64,000 nucleotides of DNA from Elusimicrobiota bacterium (GTDB lineage Bacteria > Elusimicrobiota > Elusimicrobia > Elusimicrobiales > UBA9959): contig JAPLKI010000006.1 in the NCBI GenBank assembly GCA_026388155.1, positions 1 to 64,000 of the forward strand. The letters are read 5' to 3'. The translations under genes were made by a program, and so were the position numbers. The notes under the pieces are model-generated. The model was not told the DNA's origin and did no database searches. It saw nothing but the letters and a program-made list of their open reading frames with translations. Shown piece after piece: positions 48,975-56,345 of the stretch (positions within the stretch are counted from its first letter, which is position 1; each line of letters starts with the position of its first letter).

Positions 48975-49859
48975 TTACAGCGAAGATTCTCTCAGTTCCA
49001 CTGAGGCCACGAAAGGCGAGCGGGAAAGTTCGCCCACCATGTCGACGGGAATGCTGCCGGTTACATCAAAAGCGGTGAATTTTGAAGAGCTTCCGCTTGC
49101 GGGCAGACGGAAAACATTTTCCGACACAAAACCCTTGTCGGAACTGAGGTCTTTAATATACCGGCTGACAAAAGCGCCGGGAAGGTTCTGGTATGGCACC
49201 TTTAAAGTAAATCTTACCCTGGTTTTAAGCGGAATGCCGGAGCTTTTTTTCTCCACGGAAACGCCGGCCACTTTTGGATTTTTACAAATCGCGTCAAGCC
49301 TGGCGGCCTGGGCCCAGCCGAGCACGATGATTTGTCTGGTGTTTTCCGAGTAAAGCGTTTTCTCTCCTGAAAACTTGAAACCCGCAGAAATAGTTATTTC
49401 CTCCACCAGGCCGGCATAGCCTGCTTCTTTAGGCAGAATGCTCACAAAAACATATTCCCTTGGCGATACGCCTTCCCGTTCCAGCGGTTTCACGAAAGAA
49501 GCGATAGGCCCCGCGTCTCCGGCAAAAGTGAGTTTATAATAATCCGCGGGCAGAACGGGGAGAATGGACGGCCGGACGAACGGTCGGGCGGCTTTTTGCG
49601 GCGTCAGCGGAGGGGACTTGAGTTTTTTAAGCGAAGGGGTGTCAAGCGGGGCAGGGGCGTCCCTGAAATCTCCGCGCACTTTAACAGTGTTTTTGGGATT
49701 CAGGTAACCATATGAGGTTTCAATGAAATCCTGGAAAGCGGGATCTGAATACGGAGCCGAACCGATAAGCATGGGTTCGTAGCCGAGAGTTTCCTGGGCG
49801 GAAGCGTTAGCACAAAAAAGGGAGCCGCAAAAAAACGCGAAGAGGACTTTTTTAACCAT
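48975..49859 (-). CDS. Unrecognised exported protein behind an attenuator-like leader
   Basis: A signal peptide (MVKKVLFAFFCGSLFCANAS) precedes about 270 residues of mixed alpha/beta character. No family was recognised. Segments such as PREYVFVSILPKEAGYAGLV and RVRFTLKVPYQNLPGAF suggest a globular periplasmic domain. AGGAG lies 6 nt before the ATG. A strong hairpin with T-tract (49878-49917) sits just upstream, and a good promoter lies at 50044-50072. Expression is therefore probably controlled by premature termination (inference). Confidence 0.75.
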   Translation of the reverse strand: MVKKVLFAFFCGSLFCANASAQETLGYEPMLIGSAPYSDPAFQDFIETSYGYLNPKNTVKVRGDFRDAPAPLDTPSLKKLKSPPLTPQKAARPFVRPSILPVLPADYYKLTFAGDAGPIASFVKPLEREGVSPREYVFVSILPKEAGYAGLVEEITISAGFKFSGEKTLYSENTRQIIVLGWAQAARLDAICKNPKVAGVSVEKKSSGIPLKTRVRFTLKVPYQNLPGAFVSRYIKDLSSDKGFVSENVFRLPASGSSSKFTAFDVTGSIPVDMVGELSRSPFVASVELRESSL

Positions 49860-50236: not shown

Positions 50237-50266
50237 TTGACACGCGCGCGGCCGCTGTGATACAAT
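50237..50266 (+). promoter_or_regulatory. Promoter of the TetR-TolC efflux operon
   Basis: TTGACA (50237-50242), an 18-bp spacer and TACAAT (50261-50266). The predicted start leaves a leader of only about 15-20 nt before the ATG at 50290, filled by the palindrome below. Confidence 0.75.
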
Positions 50267-50270
50267 TTAT

Positions 50271-50284
50271 CTACCGGTAGGTAG
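50271..50284. promoter_or_regulatory. Probable TetR operator
   Basis: The perfect palindrome CTACCGGTAG (50271-50280), extended by GTAG, lies just after the -10 box and overlaps the presumed ribosome site. Its position suits autorepression by the TetR domain encoded immediately downstream. Confidence 0.6.
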
Positions 50285-50289
50285 CTTTT

Positions 50290-52176
50290 ATGAAAGAACG
50301 AACCACGCTCAAACTTAAAAAAGGCGACAAAACCCGCCGGCGCATACTGGAGACCGCCTCCGCGCTCATGGCCGAGCGCGGCCCTGACGCCGTCTCCATG
50401 CGGGAAATTTCCGCGCGCCTGAAGATAACCAAGCCCGTCCTCTACTATTATTTCAAGGACAAGGACGAACTTATAAAGGCGGCCTTCGTGGAAGGCACCA
50501 AACATCTGGAAGAACTGCACAAAGAGATAGCCAACCCCGGACTGACGCTGGAACAAAAACTGGCGCGGCTATTCTCCAACCATCTGGACTTCATAAAGCG
50601 CTACCCCGACATGCCGAAGTGCGCGCTTAAAATAATGGCCTCCCCCTCTTCAGGCGTGCTCAGTTCCATGGCCCGCGAACTAAAGCAGCGCAATCGCGCC
50701 GTGCTCCGCCGGATCCTTGAAAAAGAAAACCTCCCGCGGCAGGACGCAGACGACATCCTGCACATGATAAGCGCGGTCATAAGCTATTTCATGATAGAGG
50801 CCCGCGAGCACGGGGCAGCAAGCCTTTCAAAGGCCCTGCCGGGCCGCCTGGCAAAACTTATCTGCGCCGGGACGCGCCACACGAAGGCGCTGGCGGCAGC
50901 GCTGCTGCTGTGGACAGCCCTGGTTTCCGGGGCCCGCGCTTCCGCGCTGAACCTTACATTGGACGACGCGGTACGGACGGCGCTTAAAAACAACGCCACT
51001 GTTGTCACCGCCGAAGGGACCCGCCGTATATATAAGGAAAAGGTCACCGAATACTGGGGTTCGGTTTATCCGCAGCTCAGCGCCACCGGCCAGTACACCC
51101 GCAACATAGAGTCGCCCGCGTTCTTTTTCGGCGGCGCCAAGATAAAATCCGGGCTTAACAACGTCTACTCCGCTTCGCTGGACCTGAAGCAGGTGCTCTG
51201 GGCCGGCGGCAAGGTTTCCACCGGCATAAAGATGGCGCATTTATATTCCGACGCCAGCGACGAGCAGCTGAAAATCGCGCAGAAAAGCATATCCATGGCG
51301 GTTAAGCAGGTGTATTACGGGGTGCTGCTCGCCAGGGCCATATCCGGTATACAGAAAGAGTCGCTGGACCTGGCCCGCCAGCATCTCGACATGATAAATG
51401 CCCAGTATAAACAGGGCATAGCCAGCGACCTCGCGGTCCTCAGGCAGAAGGTGGAGGTTTCCAACACCGAACCCGCTCTTACGCAGGCCCAGAACCTTTA
51501 CGAGGAAGGCCGGATAGACCTGAAGAACCTGCTGGGACTGGACCCGGAGACCGATATTACGCTCTCGGACGGGTTTAACTGCGCCGCACAGAACCCCGGA
51601 GAAATTTCCGAACTTTACAAAGAAGCCCTCTCGGGCCGCCCGGAATACCGGAACATGAAGTACCAGCTGGACCTGTACACCGAGATGATAACGATAGAAC
51701 GGGCGGAACATTTTCCCTACCTGAGCGCTGTCGCCTCCCGGCAGTTCCAGGGCCAGAGCGATTCCGGCTTCCCGTCACCCGGCCTGCAAAGCTGGAGCAC
51801 CACCGCCGGATTGAAGCTGTCCCTGCCTCTGTTTGCCGGAGGTTCCGTATCCTCGAGGACCAGGCAGGCTGAGCTGCAAGCCGGGATAGTCCGCACGAAC
51901 CTGGCGGAACTGGAGCGCGACATAAAAATAGAGGTCAAGAAGGCCTGGCTCAATATGAAGGAAGCCGCAGAAAGGCTTGCATCGCAGACAACCGCCGTAG
52001 AGCAGGCGCGCCAGGCGCTGACCGCCACCGAGGTCAGGTTCAAGAACGGGCTTTCAAGCCAGTTGGAACTCAACGACGCTTCGCTGGCGCTGAACAAATC
52101 ACAGACTTTTTACATACAGGCACAGCACGACACCTGTTCCGCCGACGCGAAACTTAAATGGACGCTCGGAGAATAA
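50290..52176 (+). CDS. TetR repressor fused to a TolC-type outer-membrane efflux protein
   Basis: Residues 1-195 are a TetR/AcrR regulator with helix-turn-helix RRRILETASALMAERGPDAV and ISARLKITKPVLYYYFKDKD, plus a helical ligand-binding part. Residues 199-218 are a hydrophobic signal-like segment (LAAALLLWTALVSGARASA). Residues 219-628 are a full outer-membrane efflux protein (LTLDDAVRTALKNNATVV; LDLKQVLWAGGKVSTGIK; SLPLFAGGSVSS). No ATG, GTG or TTG lies in frame between codon 168 and the hydrophobic segment, so separate initiation is not obvious. The adaptor and RND pump genes follow. How one chain could serve both roles is unknown; processing after the signal-like segment is possible. Confidence 0.88.
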   Translation: MKERTTLKLKKGDKTRRRILETASALMAERGPDAVSMREISARLKITKPVLYYYFKDKDELIKAAFVEGTKHLEELHKEIANPGLTLEQKLARLFSNHLDFIKRYPDMPKCALKIMASPSSGVLSSMARELKQRNRAVLRRILEKENLPRQDADDILHMISAVISYFMIEAREHGAASLSKALPGRLAKLICAGTRHTKALAAALLLWTALVSGARASALNLTLDDAVRTALKNNATVVTAEGTRRIYKEKVTEYWGSVYPQLSATGQYTRNIESPAFFFGGAKIKSGLNNVYSASLDLKQVLWAGGKVSTGIKMAHLYSDASDEQLKIAQKSISMAVKQVYYGVLLARAISGIQKESLDLARQHLDMINAQYKQGIASDLAVLRQKVEVSNTEPALTQAQNLYEEGRIDLKNLLGLDPETDITLSDGFNCAAQNPGEISELYKEALSGRPEYRNMKYQLDLYTEMITIERAEHFPYLSAVASRQFQGQSDSGFPSPGLQSWSTTAGLKLSLPLFAGGSVSSRTRQAELQAGIVRTNLAELERDIKIEVKKAWLNMKEAAERLASQTTAVEQARQALTATEVRFKNGLSSQLELNDASLALNKSQTFYIQAQHDTCSADAKLKWTLGE

Positions 52177-52180
52177 GGTT

Positions 52181-52312
52181 TCAGGTCACAAGTCACATGA
52201 CTGGAGATTAATAATATTTATGGAAACGATCAAATCCCTTACAAAAAACATATCCTGCGGGACCGGCCTTCGCTCCTATTCGCTATTCGCTATTCGCTAT
52301 TCGCTATTTTTT
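52181..52312. repeat. 7-bp-word element 28, split across the adaptor gene start
   Basis: A short AGGTCAC/AAGTCAC arm lies upstream. TATTCGC words repeated about five times (52276-52310) encode YSLFAIRYSLF in the lipoprotein signal peptide. Confidence 0.82.
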
Positions 52313-53164
52313 GCGGCCGTAGCACTTATGGCCTCCGGCTGCCGCAGCAGGGACGTGGAAGCCCTCAACAACCTTGAAAAGGACCGCTTTCTGGTTAAAA
52401 CCGAAAAAGTGCGGGTACGCAATCTTGAGGAGTATATACTGCTTACAGCCTCCGTTAAGGCGCTGGATGAAGCCACGCTTTACCCCAGAACTTCGGGCAA
52501 ACTGCTGCGCAACCTGTTGAAGGAGGGCGACCCGGTAAAGAAGGACGAGCCTGTCGCCCTTGTGGAACGCGACGAGGTGGGCGCGGTGTACGAGCCCGCC
52601 CCCGTACCCTCAACACTTACCGGCGTCATAGGCAGGATTTATCAGGACACCGGCGCCAATCTGACGCCGCAGACGCCAATAGCCCTGGTGGTAAACCAGG
52701 CACAGGTGCGGGTGGCCGTGGATGTGCCGGAAAAATACATAGGCAAAACATTTCAGGACCAGCGGGCCCTGATAAAAGTTGACGCTTTCCCCGACCATTC
52801 TTTTAGCGGACAGGTCTACCGGATAAGCCCGGTGGTGGACTCAAAATCGCGCAACACCGCGGTGGAGGTGCTGGTGGACAACCACGACGGAAGGCTGAAG
52901 TCAGGCATGTTCGCCGAGGTCCGCCTGATAACCGCCTCGCGGGGAGCTGCCCTTTCAGTGCCGGAAGGCGCTGTGGTCAGCCAGGACGGAGGAGACTTCG
53001 TGTTCGTTCCCGCTCCCAACGGTTTGGCGGCCAGGATTCCGGTGCGCACCGGAATAAAGACCAGCGATTTTGTGCAGGTAAGCGGGATAAAAGAAGGCTC
53101 GGACGTTATAACTTTCGGCCTTTACGGCCTGAAGGACGGAAGCAAGATAAAAGTGACGGAATAA
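52220..53164 (+). CDS. RND efflux periplasmic adaptor lipoprotein (HlyD/AcrA family)
   Basis: A signal peptide with a lipobox (ALMASGC) is partly encoded by 7-bp words (SYSLFAIRYSLFF). The adaptor domains follow: a barrel-sandwich half (LYPRTSGKLLRNLLKEGDPV; VALVERDE), a second half (IYQDTGANLTPQTPIALVV), a beta-barrel (VRVAVDVPEKYIG; FSGQVYRISPVVDSKSRNTAVEV) and a C-terminal domain (LSVPEGAVVSQDGGDFVFV). The alpha-hairpin is very short. It bridges the RND pump and the TolC part of the fusion protein. GGAG lies about 13 nt before the ATG. Confidence 0.9.
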   Translation: METIKSLTKNISCGTGLRSYSLFAIRYSLFFAAVALMASGCRSRDVEALNNLEKDRFLVKTEKVRVRNLEEYILLTASVKALDEATLYPRTSGKLLRNLLKEGDPVKKDEPVALVERDEVGAVYEPAPVPSTLTGVIGRIYQDTGANLTPQTPIALVVNQAQVRVAVDVPEKYIGKTFQDQRALIKVDAFPDHSFSGQVYRISPVVDSKSRNTAVEVLVDNHDGRLKSGMFAEVRLITASRGAALSVPEGAVVSQDGGDFVFVPAPNGLAARIPVRTGIKTSDFVQVSGIKEGSDVITFGLYGLKDGSKIKVTE

Positions 53165-53258: not shown

Positions 53259-56200
53259 ATGAAAATCACCGAAATCGCCGTCAAAAAACCTATCTTCACC
53301 ACTATGATGATCCTTACCATCCTGGTGCTCGGTGCTTACGCCTATATCCGCCTCGGCATAGACCTGATGCCCAACGTGGAATTCCCTTTCGTGATGATAC
53401 AGACCTCGCTGCGCGGCGCCGGCCCGGAAGAGATAGAGTCCTCCGTGACCAAGCCGCTCGAAGAGGCCGTGAACACCATTTCCGGCATTGAGGACATTAC
53501 TTCCACCAGTTACGAGGGCATGTCGGTCCTGCTGATAAAGTTCTCGCTGGAAAAGAACGGCGACGTGGCCGCGCAGGATGTGCGCGACAAGGTCAATTCC
53601 GTGCTTGGCGAGCTTCCGCAGGGCACCAACCCGCCGGTGATAGCCAAGTTCGACATAGGGGCCATCGCGGTACTGAACGTGGTGGTCTATGGCAACCGCA
53701 ACCTGATAGACCTGACGCAGATAGCCAAGAAGAAGATCAAGGAGAACATAGAGACCGTCAACGGGGTGGGCGCCGTTGACATCGTGGGAGGCCGCGAAAG
53801 GGAAATACACATCGTCGTCAACCCGCTCAAGCTCTCGGCGATGAACCTGTCCATCAAGCAGGTGAAGGACGCCATAACCCAGCAGAACATAGAGATCCCC
53901 GGCGGCAAGGTGGAACAGACAGAACGGGAATTCGTACTGCGCACCCTTGGCCGCATACAGGACGTAAAAGATTTTAACGACATCGTTATCACTACGATAA
54001 ACGGCACGCCGGTGCGCGTCTCCGACATAGGCCGCGTGGAAGACACCGGCGAGCGCATGACCACGGCCTCCTTCTACAACGGCCGTCCCTCGGTCACGCT
54101 GGTGGTAAAGAAGCAGTCCGGCACGAACACCGTGGCCGTGGTAAAGAACATTAATGAGCGCATCAAAGAGCTGAAGGGCTCCCTGCCCCCGGGCATCGAG
54201 ACCACCATAATCGGCGACCAGTCCGTGTTCATCAAGAACTCGGTGGATACGGTGACGGAGCACCTGCTGCTGGGCGCGTTATGCGCCGCCCTGATGGTGC
54301 TCGTCTTCATCGGCGATTTCCGCTCCACGCTGATCTCTTCGCTGGCCATTCCGACTTCGCTCATCGGCACCCTCATTTTCATGCAGGCGGCCGGCTTTAC
54401 CATAAACACCATGACGCTGCTGGGCCTGACCATAGCCGTCGGCATCGTGGTCGACGACGCCATCGTCATGCTTGAGAACATTTACCGCCACATGGAAGTG
54501 CATAAGATGAGCCCGCTGAAGGCCGCGCTGGACGGCTCGCGCGAGATAGGCTTCGCCGTCGTAGCCATGTCGGCGGCCCTGCTGGTCATCTTCGTGCCGC
54601 TGGCCTACATGGGCGGCATCATAGGCCGCTTCCTCAAGAGCTACGGCCTCACGATAGCCTTCGCCGTGGCCCTGAGCGTCTTCGTGGCGCTGACGCTGAC
54701 GCCGATGCTCTGCTCCCTGTTCCTGAAGATCAGCCCGAAGGAGAAGACCGGCCTGGAGAAGTTCACCGAGAACGTCAACGAATGGCTGGCCTCACGCTAT
54801 ATAAAGATGCTGGAATGGGCCCTGGCCCGCCGCAAGCAGATGGTGGTTTACGCCGTTCTCATCATGCTTTCCACGGTGCCGCTGTTCATATTCCTCGGCA
54901 AGGACTTCATGCCCGCCGACGACACCAGCCAGTACCAGATAAGCATCACCTCGCCCGAAGGCACCAGCCTCGCCATGATGAAGCAGATCTTCGCGCAGGT
55001 GGAGACGGAGACGCGCCAGCTCCCCTACGTCAAAAACATCCTCTCCTCCATAGGCAGCGGCACCGGCGGCCACTTCAGTGCGGCGGCCAGCAACTCGGGC
55101 TACGTGCTGGTGGAACTGGCGGACCTAAAGGACCGGAACCTCCCCCTGGAGAAGCTGGTGCTGGCCTCGCGCGAGATGATGAGCAAGTACAAAGGCCTGC
55201 GCGTCTCCGTGGCTGCCGTAGGCGGCTTCGGCGGCGGCGACGCCGCGCTGCAATACAATATTATGGGCCCGGACCTGGCCAAGCTGCAGGAATATTCCGC
55301 CGCCGTGGCCGATAAGCTGCGCAAGGTCAAGGGCGCGGTGGACGTGGACACCAGTTTCTCCTTCGCCAAGCCGGAATACCGGGTGGAGATAGACCGCAGC
55401 CGGGCCCACGACCTGGGAGTGAAAGTGGAAGACATAGCCACCTCCCTGCGGACACTTGTGGGAGGCGAAGAGGACATAACCAAGTACAAGGACGGCGACG
55501 AGCTTTACCAGGTGCGGCTGCGCGCCGAAGAAGGCTTCCGCGACCGCAAGGAAGCCATAGAGGCCCTGATGATACCCGCCGGGATCAACCGCGTGACACG
55601 GCTGGACAATATCGCCAAAGTGGTGGAAGGCGTGGGCCCCACGCAGATATCGCGCTTCAACCGCCAGCGCAACGTGCAGGTAATGGCCAACGTAGACGGC
55701 ATCCCGACAGGCGCGCTGATAAAAGAAGCGGCTAAGGCCTTTAAAGAGCTTAAAGCCCCGCCCGAATACAGGGCCGACGTCTACGGCAGGGCCAAAGAGC
55801 TCGGCAACATGTTAAGTGAATTCCTGATAGCCTTCTTACTGGCCTTTATCTTCATCTACATCGTGCTGGCCAGCCAGTTCGAAAGTTTCGCCTATCCCAT
55901 CTCCATCATGATAGTGCTGCCGCTGACCATCCCGTTCGCCATCATCTCGCTGTTCATAGCCGGGCAGGACTTGACGCTGTTCGCCATCATGGGCATGTTC
56001 ATGCTCTTCGGCATAGTGACGAAGAACTCCATTCTGCAGGTGGACTACACCAACACCCTGCGGGCCAAGGGGCTGCCGCGCCACCAGGCGATGCTCGAGG
56101 CCAACAAGACCCGGCTGCGCCCGATACTCATGACCACGCTGACGCTGATAGCCAGCATGATACCCACGGCGCTGGGCACCGGCGCGGGATCGGGCACGCG

Positions 56201-56345
56201 CCGCACCATGGCCCTGGTAATAATAGGCGGCCAGGCCCTTTCGCTTTTAATAACCCTTCTTATGACGCCGGTCACCTATTCGCTTTTAGACGACCTGGAG
56301 ATATGGTTTAAGAAAAAATACATGTCCGGAAAGGCGCCTGCCTGA
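53259..56345 (+). CDS. RND family efflux pump (HAE1/AcrB type)
   Basis: At 1,028 residues it has the RND length and layout. An N-terminal helix (MKITEIAVKKPIFTTMMILTI) is followed by a periplasmic porter region (GIDLMPNVEFPFVMIQTSL), helices 2-6 with the proton-relay motif GIVVDDAIVMLENIYRH, a second periplasmic half, and helices 8-12 (FILMGMFMLFGIVTKNS-like region; AMLEANKTRLRPILMTTLTL). It exports drugs or lipids using the proton gradient. Codon use is strongly C/G-ending compared with most of the window, possibly reflecting transfer. It completes the TetR-TolC/adaptor/pump operon. Confidence 0.96.
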   Translation: MKITEIAVKKPIFTTMMILTILVLGAYAYIRLGIDLMPNVEFPFVMIQTSLRGAGPEEIESSVTKPLEEAVNTISGIEDITSTSYEGMSVLLIKFSLEKNGDVAAQDVRDKVNSVLGELPQGTNPPVIAKFDIGAIAVLNVVVYGNRNLIDLTQIAKKKIKENIETVNGVGAVDIVGGREREIHIVVNPLKLSAMNLSIKQVKDAITQQNIEIPGGKVEQTEREFVLRTLGRIQDVKDFNDIVITTINGTPVRVSDIGRVEDTGERMTTASFYNGRPSVTLVVKKQSGTNTVAVVKNINERIKELKGSLPPGIETTIIGDQSVFIKNSVDTVTEHLLLGALCAALMVLVFIGDFRSTLISSLAIPTSLIGTLIFMQAAGFTINTMTLLGLTIAVGIVVDDAIVMLENIYRHMEVHKMSPLKAALDGSREIGFAVVAMSAALLVIFVPLAYMGGIIGRFLKSYGLTIAFAVALSVFVALTLTPMLCSLFLKISPKEKTGLEKFTENVNEWLASRYIKMLEWALARRKQMVVYAVLIMLSTVPLFIFLGKDFMPADDTSQYQISITSPEGTSLAMMKQIFAQVETETRQLPYVKNILSSIGSGTGGHFSAAASNSGYVLVELADLKDRNLPLEKLVLASREMMSKYKGLRVSVAAVGGFGGGDAALQYNIMGPDLAKLQEYSAAVADKLRKVKGAVDVDTSFSFAKPEYRVEIDRSRAHDLGVKVEDIATSLRTLVGGEEDITKYKDGDELYQVRLRAEEGFRDRKEAIEALMIPAGINRVTRLDNIAKVVEGVGPTQISRFNRQRNVQVMANVDGIPTGALIKEAAKAFKELKAPPEYRADVYGRAKELGNMLSEFLIAFLLAFIFIYIVLASQFESFAYPISIMIVLPLTIPFAIISLFIAGQDLTLFAIMGMFMLFGIVTKNSILQVDYTNTLRAKGLPRHQAMLEANKTRLRPILMTTLTLIASMIPTALGTGAGSGTRRTMALVIIGGQALSLLITLLMTPVTYSLLDDLEIWFKKKYMSGKAPA

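Follow-up and report, generated by a model that had tools for sequence, protein, structure and literature searches.

A TetR repressor and a TolC-type channel in one conserved reading frame of Elusimicrobia, with a candidate cleavage point between them

Introduction

How can a DNA-binding repressor and an outer-membrane channel be encoded as one chain? The question is raised by a single gene of an Elusimicrobiota genome, which lies in a stretch of 64,000 nucleotides (contig JAPLKI010000006.1 of assembly GCA_026388155.1; hereafter the window). Local TetR-family repressors of tripartite efflux operons, of the AcrR type, have been described (PMC8277102), and TetR-controlled efflux operons, TolC channels and membrane-bound regulators are all already known. 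For a fusion of TetR repressor and TolC channel, no description was found in the literature searched, outside which most subscription papers lie. The initial annotation of the window called the joint paradoxical and offered three mechanisms for it: the chain is cut, the channel is initiated internally at a CTG, or the repressor is tethered to the membrane so that export and repression are linked.

Results

The gene is a single unbroken open reading frame of 628 codons, from ATG to TAA with no stop inside, and its product consists of a complete TetR repressor, followed by a segment resembling a signal peptide and then a complete TolC channel:

50290..52176, + strand: TetR-TolC fusion gene (reading of the frame, Pfam, relatives)
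50320..50874, + strand: TetR repressor part, residues 11-195, with the helix-turn-helix at 19-65 (Pfam TetR_N, ten predicted helices, TetR folds in the PDB)
50887..50928, + strand: hydrophobic core of the putative internal signal sequence, residues 200-213 (rule-based scan; low-confidence model helix at 198-211)
50938..50946, + strand: proposed signal peptidase site A-S-A, cut after residue 219 (small-x-small rule)
50947..52173, + strand: TolC/OEP channel part, residues 220-628 (Pfam OEP, TolC fold)

The N-terminal TetR helix-turn-helix is matched by TetR_N (PF00440) at residues 19-65 (E 7.9e-16; 58 bits against a cut-off of 24), and OEP matches in two stretches (E 1e-60), so that both OEP repeats are present together with the TolC fold. 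In an AlphaFold2 model built with 23 relatives, ten TetR helices extend up to residue 195 and the TolC fold starts at 220; confidence is low across the junction, including the helix at 198-211. In a Foldseek search the TolC part hit E. coli TolC and OprM, and the TetR part hit, more weakly and over about 180-200 residues, TetR regulators of solved structure; the all-helical C-terminal ligand/dimer domain of such regulators is present by the model and by these matches. Between distant relatives the helix-turn-helix is 49-61% identical, compared with 23-30% for the rest of TetR, and by this and by its conserved operator (below) the TetR part looks functional.

Two further genes of an efflux pump follow on the same strand:

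52220..53164, + strand: membrane fusion protein of the pump, HlyD/CusB type (Pfam HlyD_D23)
53259..56345, + strand: RND permease of the pump (Pfam ACR_tran, E 1.9e-266; the best NCBIfam model, RND_permease_2, scores under its cut-off)

Since by Pfam the genes for channel, membrane fusion protein and RND permease stand together, we read the locus as an RND tripartite efflux operon that begins with the gene for its own repressor. At the start of the gene for the membrane fusion protein (52276-52308) there is a perfect 7-nt tandem repeat, CTATTCG, in 4.7 copies; a change in copy number would shift the frame, and phase variation is therefore possible. The divergent neighbour on the other side (48975-49859, - strand) encodes a protein with an apparent signal peptide and had zero matches in the Pfam and NCBIfam searches. 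G148 has a similar protein at the corresponding position (L240).

The fusion is near-fixed in the family of the window. Our sample of the phylum comprised 341 genomes, 59 of them from this family, and 49 of the 59 match the fusion at E<=1e-70. Both halves are in one stop-free frame in 47 of these 49; the exceptions are G010, where the gene is split, and G017, which matches in the TolC part only. Fused members diverge down to 34% identity (range 34-72%) and 26% GC. Over codons 150-235 of 26 aligned fusions, whose genes range from 26 to 68% GC, the real frame has 0 stops and the other two frames have 204 and 57. The fusion is also found in two genomes from other families of the same class (G169 and G212), and a search of named GTDB genomes returned fused relatives that are Elusimicrobia metagenome-assembled genomes from several unrelated projects. 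There were no fusions outside Elusimicrobiota among the best 80 contig loci, and none of the plasmid records searched had one place covering 80% of the query. Every genome here is a metagenome assembly, which is what might favour an artefact of assembly or sequencing as the source of the joint; we give this practically no credence, as the same open frame recurs in dozens of independent assemblies of diverged sequence, and assembly error is ruled out by the fused relatives. We conclude from these alignments that the frame is genuine, with no sequencing slip, and the in-frame fusion proposed by the initial annotation stands.

Two genomes of the family (L044 in G013:C27 and L168 in G154:C51) carry an additional TetR-TolC fusion, a divergent one with about 27% identity to that of the window and with further TetR and TolC genes beside it; at its junction, GRLAALICKGACALL, it is similar to the main family. 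Among other candidates, G049 and G051 of a sister family were rejected as independent fusions, the DNA showing a stop directly before the TolC ATG, and long TolC frames in G000:C25 and G004 proved not to be TetR fusions.

In that sister family, of the same order and with Elusimicrobiaceae among its named records, the same pair is two separate genes with an intact TolC start, so that the expectation of the same fusion in relatives holds for the window's own family and fails for its sister. The sister-family junction typically reads ...GIKxYYKExK-stop-ATG-AAA-AA..., often in the same frame, and its TolC starts mostly have Shine-Dalgarno energies of -5 to -9 kcal/mol. The corresponding stretch in the fusions is ...AGAR-x-x-K-hydrophobic, and codon-level alignment locates the old start:

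50881..50883, + strand: codon 198 (ACG), at the position of the sister family's TolC start ATG

Codon 198 is ATG in 6 of the 26 fusions; CTG occurs there in only some relatives, and elsewhere the codon is CTC, GCC, GCG, TTC, TTT or TTA. As had been claimed, no standard start codon follows codon 168 before the hydrophobic segment: read in frame from residue 165 to the end of that segment, the window has ATG168 as its sole ATG, GTG or TTG. Most close relatives have an ATG at this codon, and in the window its Shine-Dalgarno energy is -2.4, against a median of -7.0 for TetR starts and -2.8 for background. Candidate internal starts vary among relatives and mostly score like background; a few have a Shine-Dalgarno sequence, such as GTG176 of L008 (-9.3) and of L002 (-7.4). 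Neither a conserved internal start nor a conserved Shine-Dalgarno sequence was found inside the fusions of the aligned relatives. The CTG start suggested for the junction is thus poorly supported, the codon being ACG here and CTG not being conserved at that position.

Three relatives carry what look like rearranged forms of the fusion. G010 has two genes but groups with fused relatives in the TolC tree; its TetR ends in ...LICAGARSGKTT-stop, and this end overlaps the ATG of the TolC gene, whose product has an ordinary signal peptide at its N-terminus. By this evidence G010 carries a fusion that has split again. G158 carries an intact fusion and also a paralogue (L167, G158:C47:119000-124000) that has lost most of TetR by an in-frame deletion and has a degenerate operator, while the frame still runs from the TetR start through the signal to TolC. 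In G163, all that is left of TetR before the signal is about 70 residues of its tail, and this remnant begins with an ATG. The deletions in the G158 paralogue and G163 could possibly have an assembly cause. Taken as they are, the three fit the view that TolC needs translation entering from upstream and that the halves need not stay joined. From the drifted old start, the lack of a conserved internal start, G010 and the G158 paralogue, TolC is most probably translated from the TetR start. Six changes between fused and unfused states are needed on the TolC tree, whose root is unsure, and one origin of the fusion with later splits is plausible.

A TolC-type cleavable signal peptide at the N-terminus is absent from the fusion, and the signal-like segment is instead internal, about 200 residues from the start. 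All 45 distinct fusions have basic residues, then about 15 uncharged residues (median 15), then a small-x-small site, and stand-alone TolCs score alike, with a run of 17. The last TetR helix is separated from the hydrophobic core by a short spacer of nearly constant length. The candidate cleavage site in the window was assigned by the small-x-small rule of thumb and not by a trained predictor; the same rule offers an alternative cut after residue 217 (A-R-A). The window's own genome encodes two matches to signal peptidase I and one S2P protease.

Upstream of the gene are a promoter and a putative operator:

50237..50266, + strand: sigma-70-like promoter (TTGACA at 50237-50242, 18 nt spacer, TACAAT at 50261-50266)
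50268..50285, no strand: putative operator TATCTACCGGTAGGTAGC, overlapping the promoter end and the ribosome-binding site (conservation, co-occurrence, second copy)

A TTGAC/TATAAT pair is at the same place in most fused relatives. The palindromic operator reported just upstream of the gene was confirmed, with CTACCGGTAG read at 50271-50280 between promoter and ATG. In nearly all of the 26 aligned fused loci, TACCGGTARGTA falls in the interval from the -10 box to the start codon and overlaps the Shine-Dalgarno sequence. In 46 of the 48 family genomes that have the gene pair, the operator lies no more than 61 nt upstream of the gene, and G012 and G027 have a one-letter variant at that place; of the 11 family genomes without the pair, 10 lack the site, and in the other (G020) it is inside a coding region. 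As the same operator also precedes the separate tetR in several sister-family genomes, it is probably older than the fusion. From the operator, and from it only, we infer that the TetR part represses at this putative site.

The window's genome has exactly one other perfect copy of the operator (G000:C21:59011-59023; loci L186 and L231), directly before a TolC-MFP-MacB operon of the MacAB type, and no TetR gene was seen near that operon in the stretch read. TACCGGTAGGTA is the predicted operator at both sites, upstream of the fusion gene and of the second TolC operon (G000:C21:59011). Eight relatives (G009, G012, G014, G027, G145, G148, G157 and G158) have the same site before their corresponding TolC gene, giving nine genomes in all; in G004, which has no fusion, no site was found before the orthologous TolC gene. 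This second copy suggests that the TetR half probably acts in trans.

Discussion

Of the three mechanisms offered for this gene, cleavage is the best supported by the sequences. We consider it likely that the product is a polyprotein precursor, which cleavage at its internal signal sequence separates into a repressor left in the cytoplasm and a channel that is exported. Ribosomes would start at the TetR ATG only, and the TetR domain would fold in the cytoplasm. The hydrophobic segment would then act as an internal Sec signal sequence (N-in) through which the TolC part is exported, and signal peptidase I would cut behind it. Once freed, TolC would form trimers in the outer membrane and serve the downstream-encoded RND pump as its channel. 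The TetR half would stay cytoplasmic, with the signal remnant as a short hydrophobic C-terminal tail that is perhaps trimmed later by the S2P protease; RseP, the S2P protease of E. coli, clears remnant signal peptides after the signal-peptidase cut (PMC8144685). As a dimer, it would repress its own promoter and, in several genomes including that of the window, the second efflux operon of the MacAB type. The sequences directly show the conserved frame, the lost internal start, and the conserved operator with its second copy; from them we infer the topology, the cut, the repression and what becomes of the hydrophobic remnant, as we would any tethering. It counts against the precursor that cleavable signals do not usually follow a folded N-terminal domain. 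'Paradoxical' is too strong a word, since cleavage by signal peptidase would resolve the joint of repressor and envelope protein. Since cleavage would make the fusion harmless, it may have spread neutrally.

Two other readings compete with this one. The repressor could stay held in the membrane, cut or uncut, and sense membrane-borne drugs or the export of the channel, so that export and repression are linked. That the joint is kept across the family at 34-72% identity speaks for this, as do the short and nearly constant spacer and the existence of membrane-anchored regulators; an artificial membrane-anchored TetR binds its operator in Vibrio cholerae (PMC11856585). Trans action could be achieved by a soluble or by a laterally mobile membrane-held repressor. 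We nevertheless regard a membrane-held repressor as unlikely, because the hydrophobic run is short and resembles a cleavable signal, G010 presumably works with two separate genes, and the same operator serves the unfused, ancestor-like state. A lasting joint is further disfavoured because TetR proteins form dimers and TolC proteins trimers. Alternatively, ribosomes could initiate internally, at ATG168 or a non-standard codon around 198, and make TolC as a protein of its own, with no precursor to cut. ATG168 in most close relatives, the ATG at codon 198 in six fusions and the GTG176 of L002 and L008 with its good Shine-Dalgarno sequence would favour such a start. We find it improbable, however, as no start is common to all, the only candidate in the window is at background strength, codon 198 has drifted to non-start codons in several relatives, and the G158 paralogue keeps its frame from the TetR start despite the deletion of TetR. 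In a more elaborate scheme, TetR would be released or repositioned only after the attached channel had been translocated and cut, and this export-coupled switch would set the repression of both operons; we put this forward as a speculation that is quite probably wrong.

If a precursor is indeed cut, repressor and outer-membrane channel are produced as one chain throughout a bacterial family. The ratio of repressor to channel would be fixed, and the repressor would have to pass by the membrane insertion machinery, so that the family would be a natural test of DNA-binding proteins working beside the Sec machinery, and of how an operon loses and regains the stop and start codons that separate its genes. 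Fused genes like this one probably appear under a TetR-only or a TolC-only name in the output of annotation pipelines.

Like the AcrR-type systems, the locus has a TetR regulator next to an RND efflux operon and a palindromic operator at the promoter; AcrR-type regulators, however, are separate and usually divergent genes, whereas here the regulator comes first in the operon and is fused to the channel. The channel part has the full fold and sequence family of TolC/OprM outer membrane factors, but its signal sequence is internal, behind a cytoplasmic DNA-binding protein. The order of N-terminal DNA-binding part, hydrophobic segment and envelope part is shared with the membrane-bound one-component regulators ToxR, CadC and ChiS. 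Those proteins have a winged-helix or other DNA-binding part, a lasting anchor and an envelope sensor, in place of the TetR repressor, short signal-like segment and channel found here. In Bradyrhizobium, fbcH (the cytochrome b/c1 precursor) is one gene for two proteins that are separated at an internal signal sequence, as we propose for the present gene. The products of fbcH share one respiratory complex, whereas the two joined here are a cytoplasmic repressor and an outer-membrane channel.
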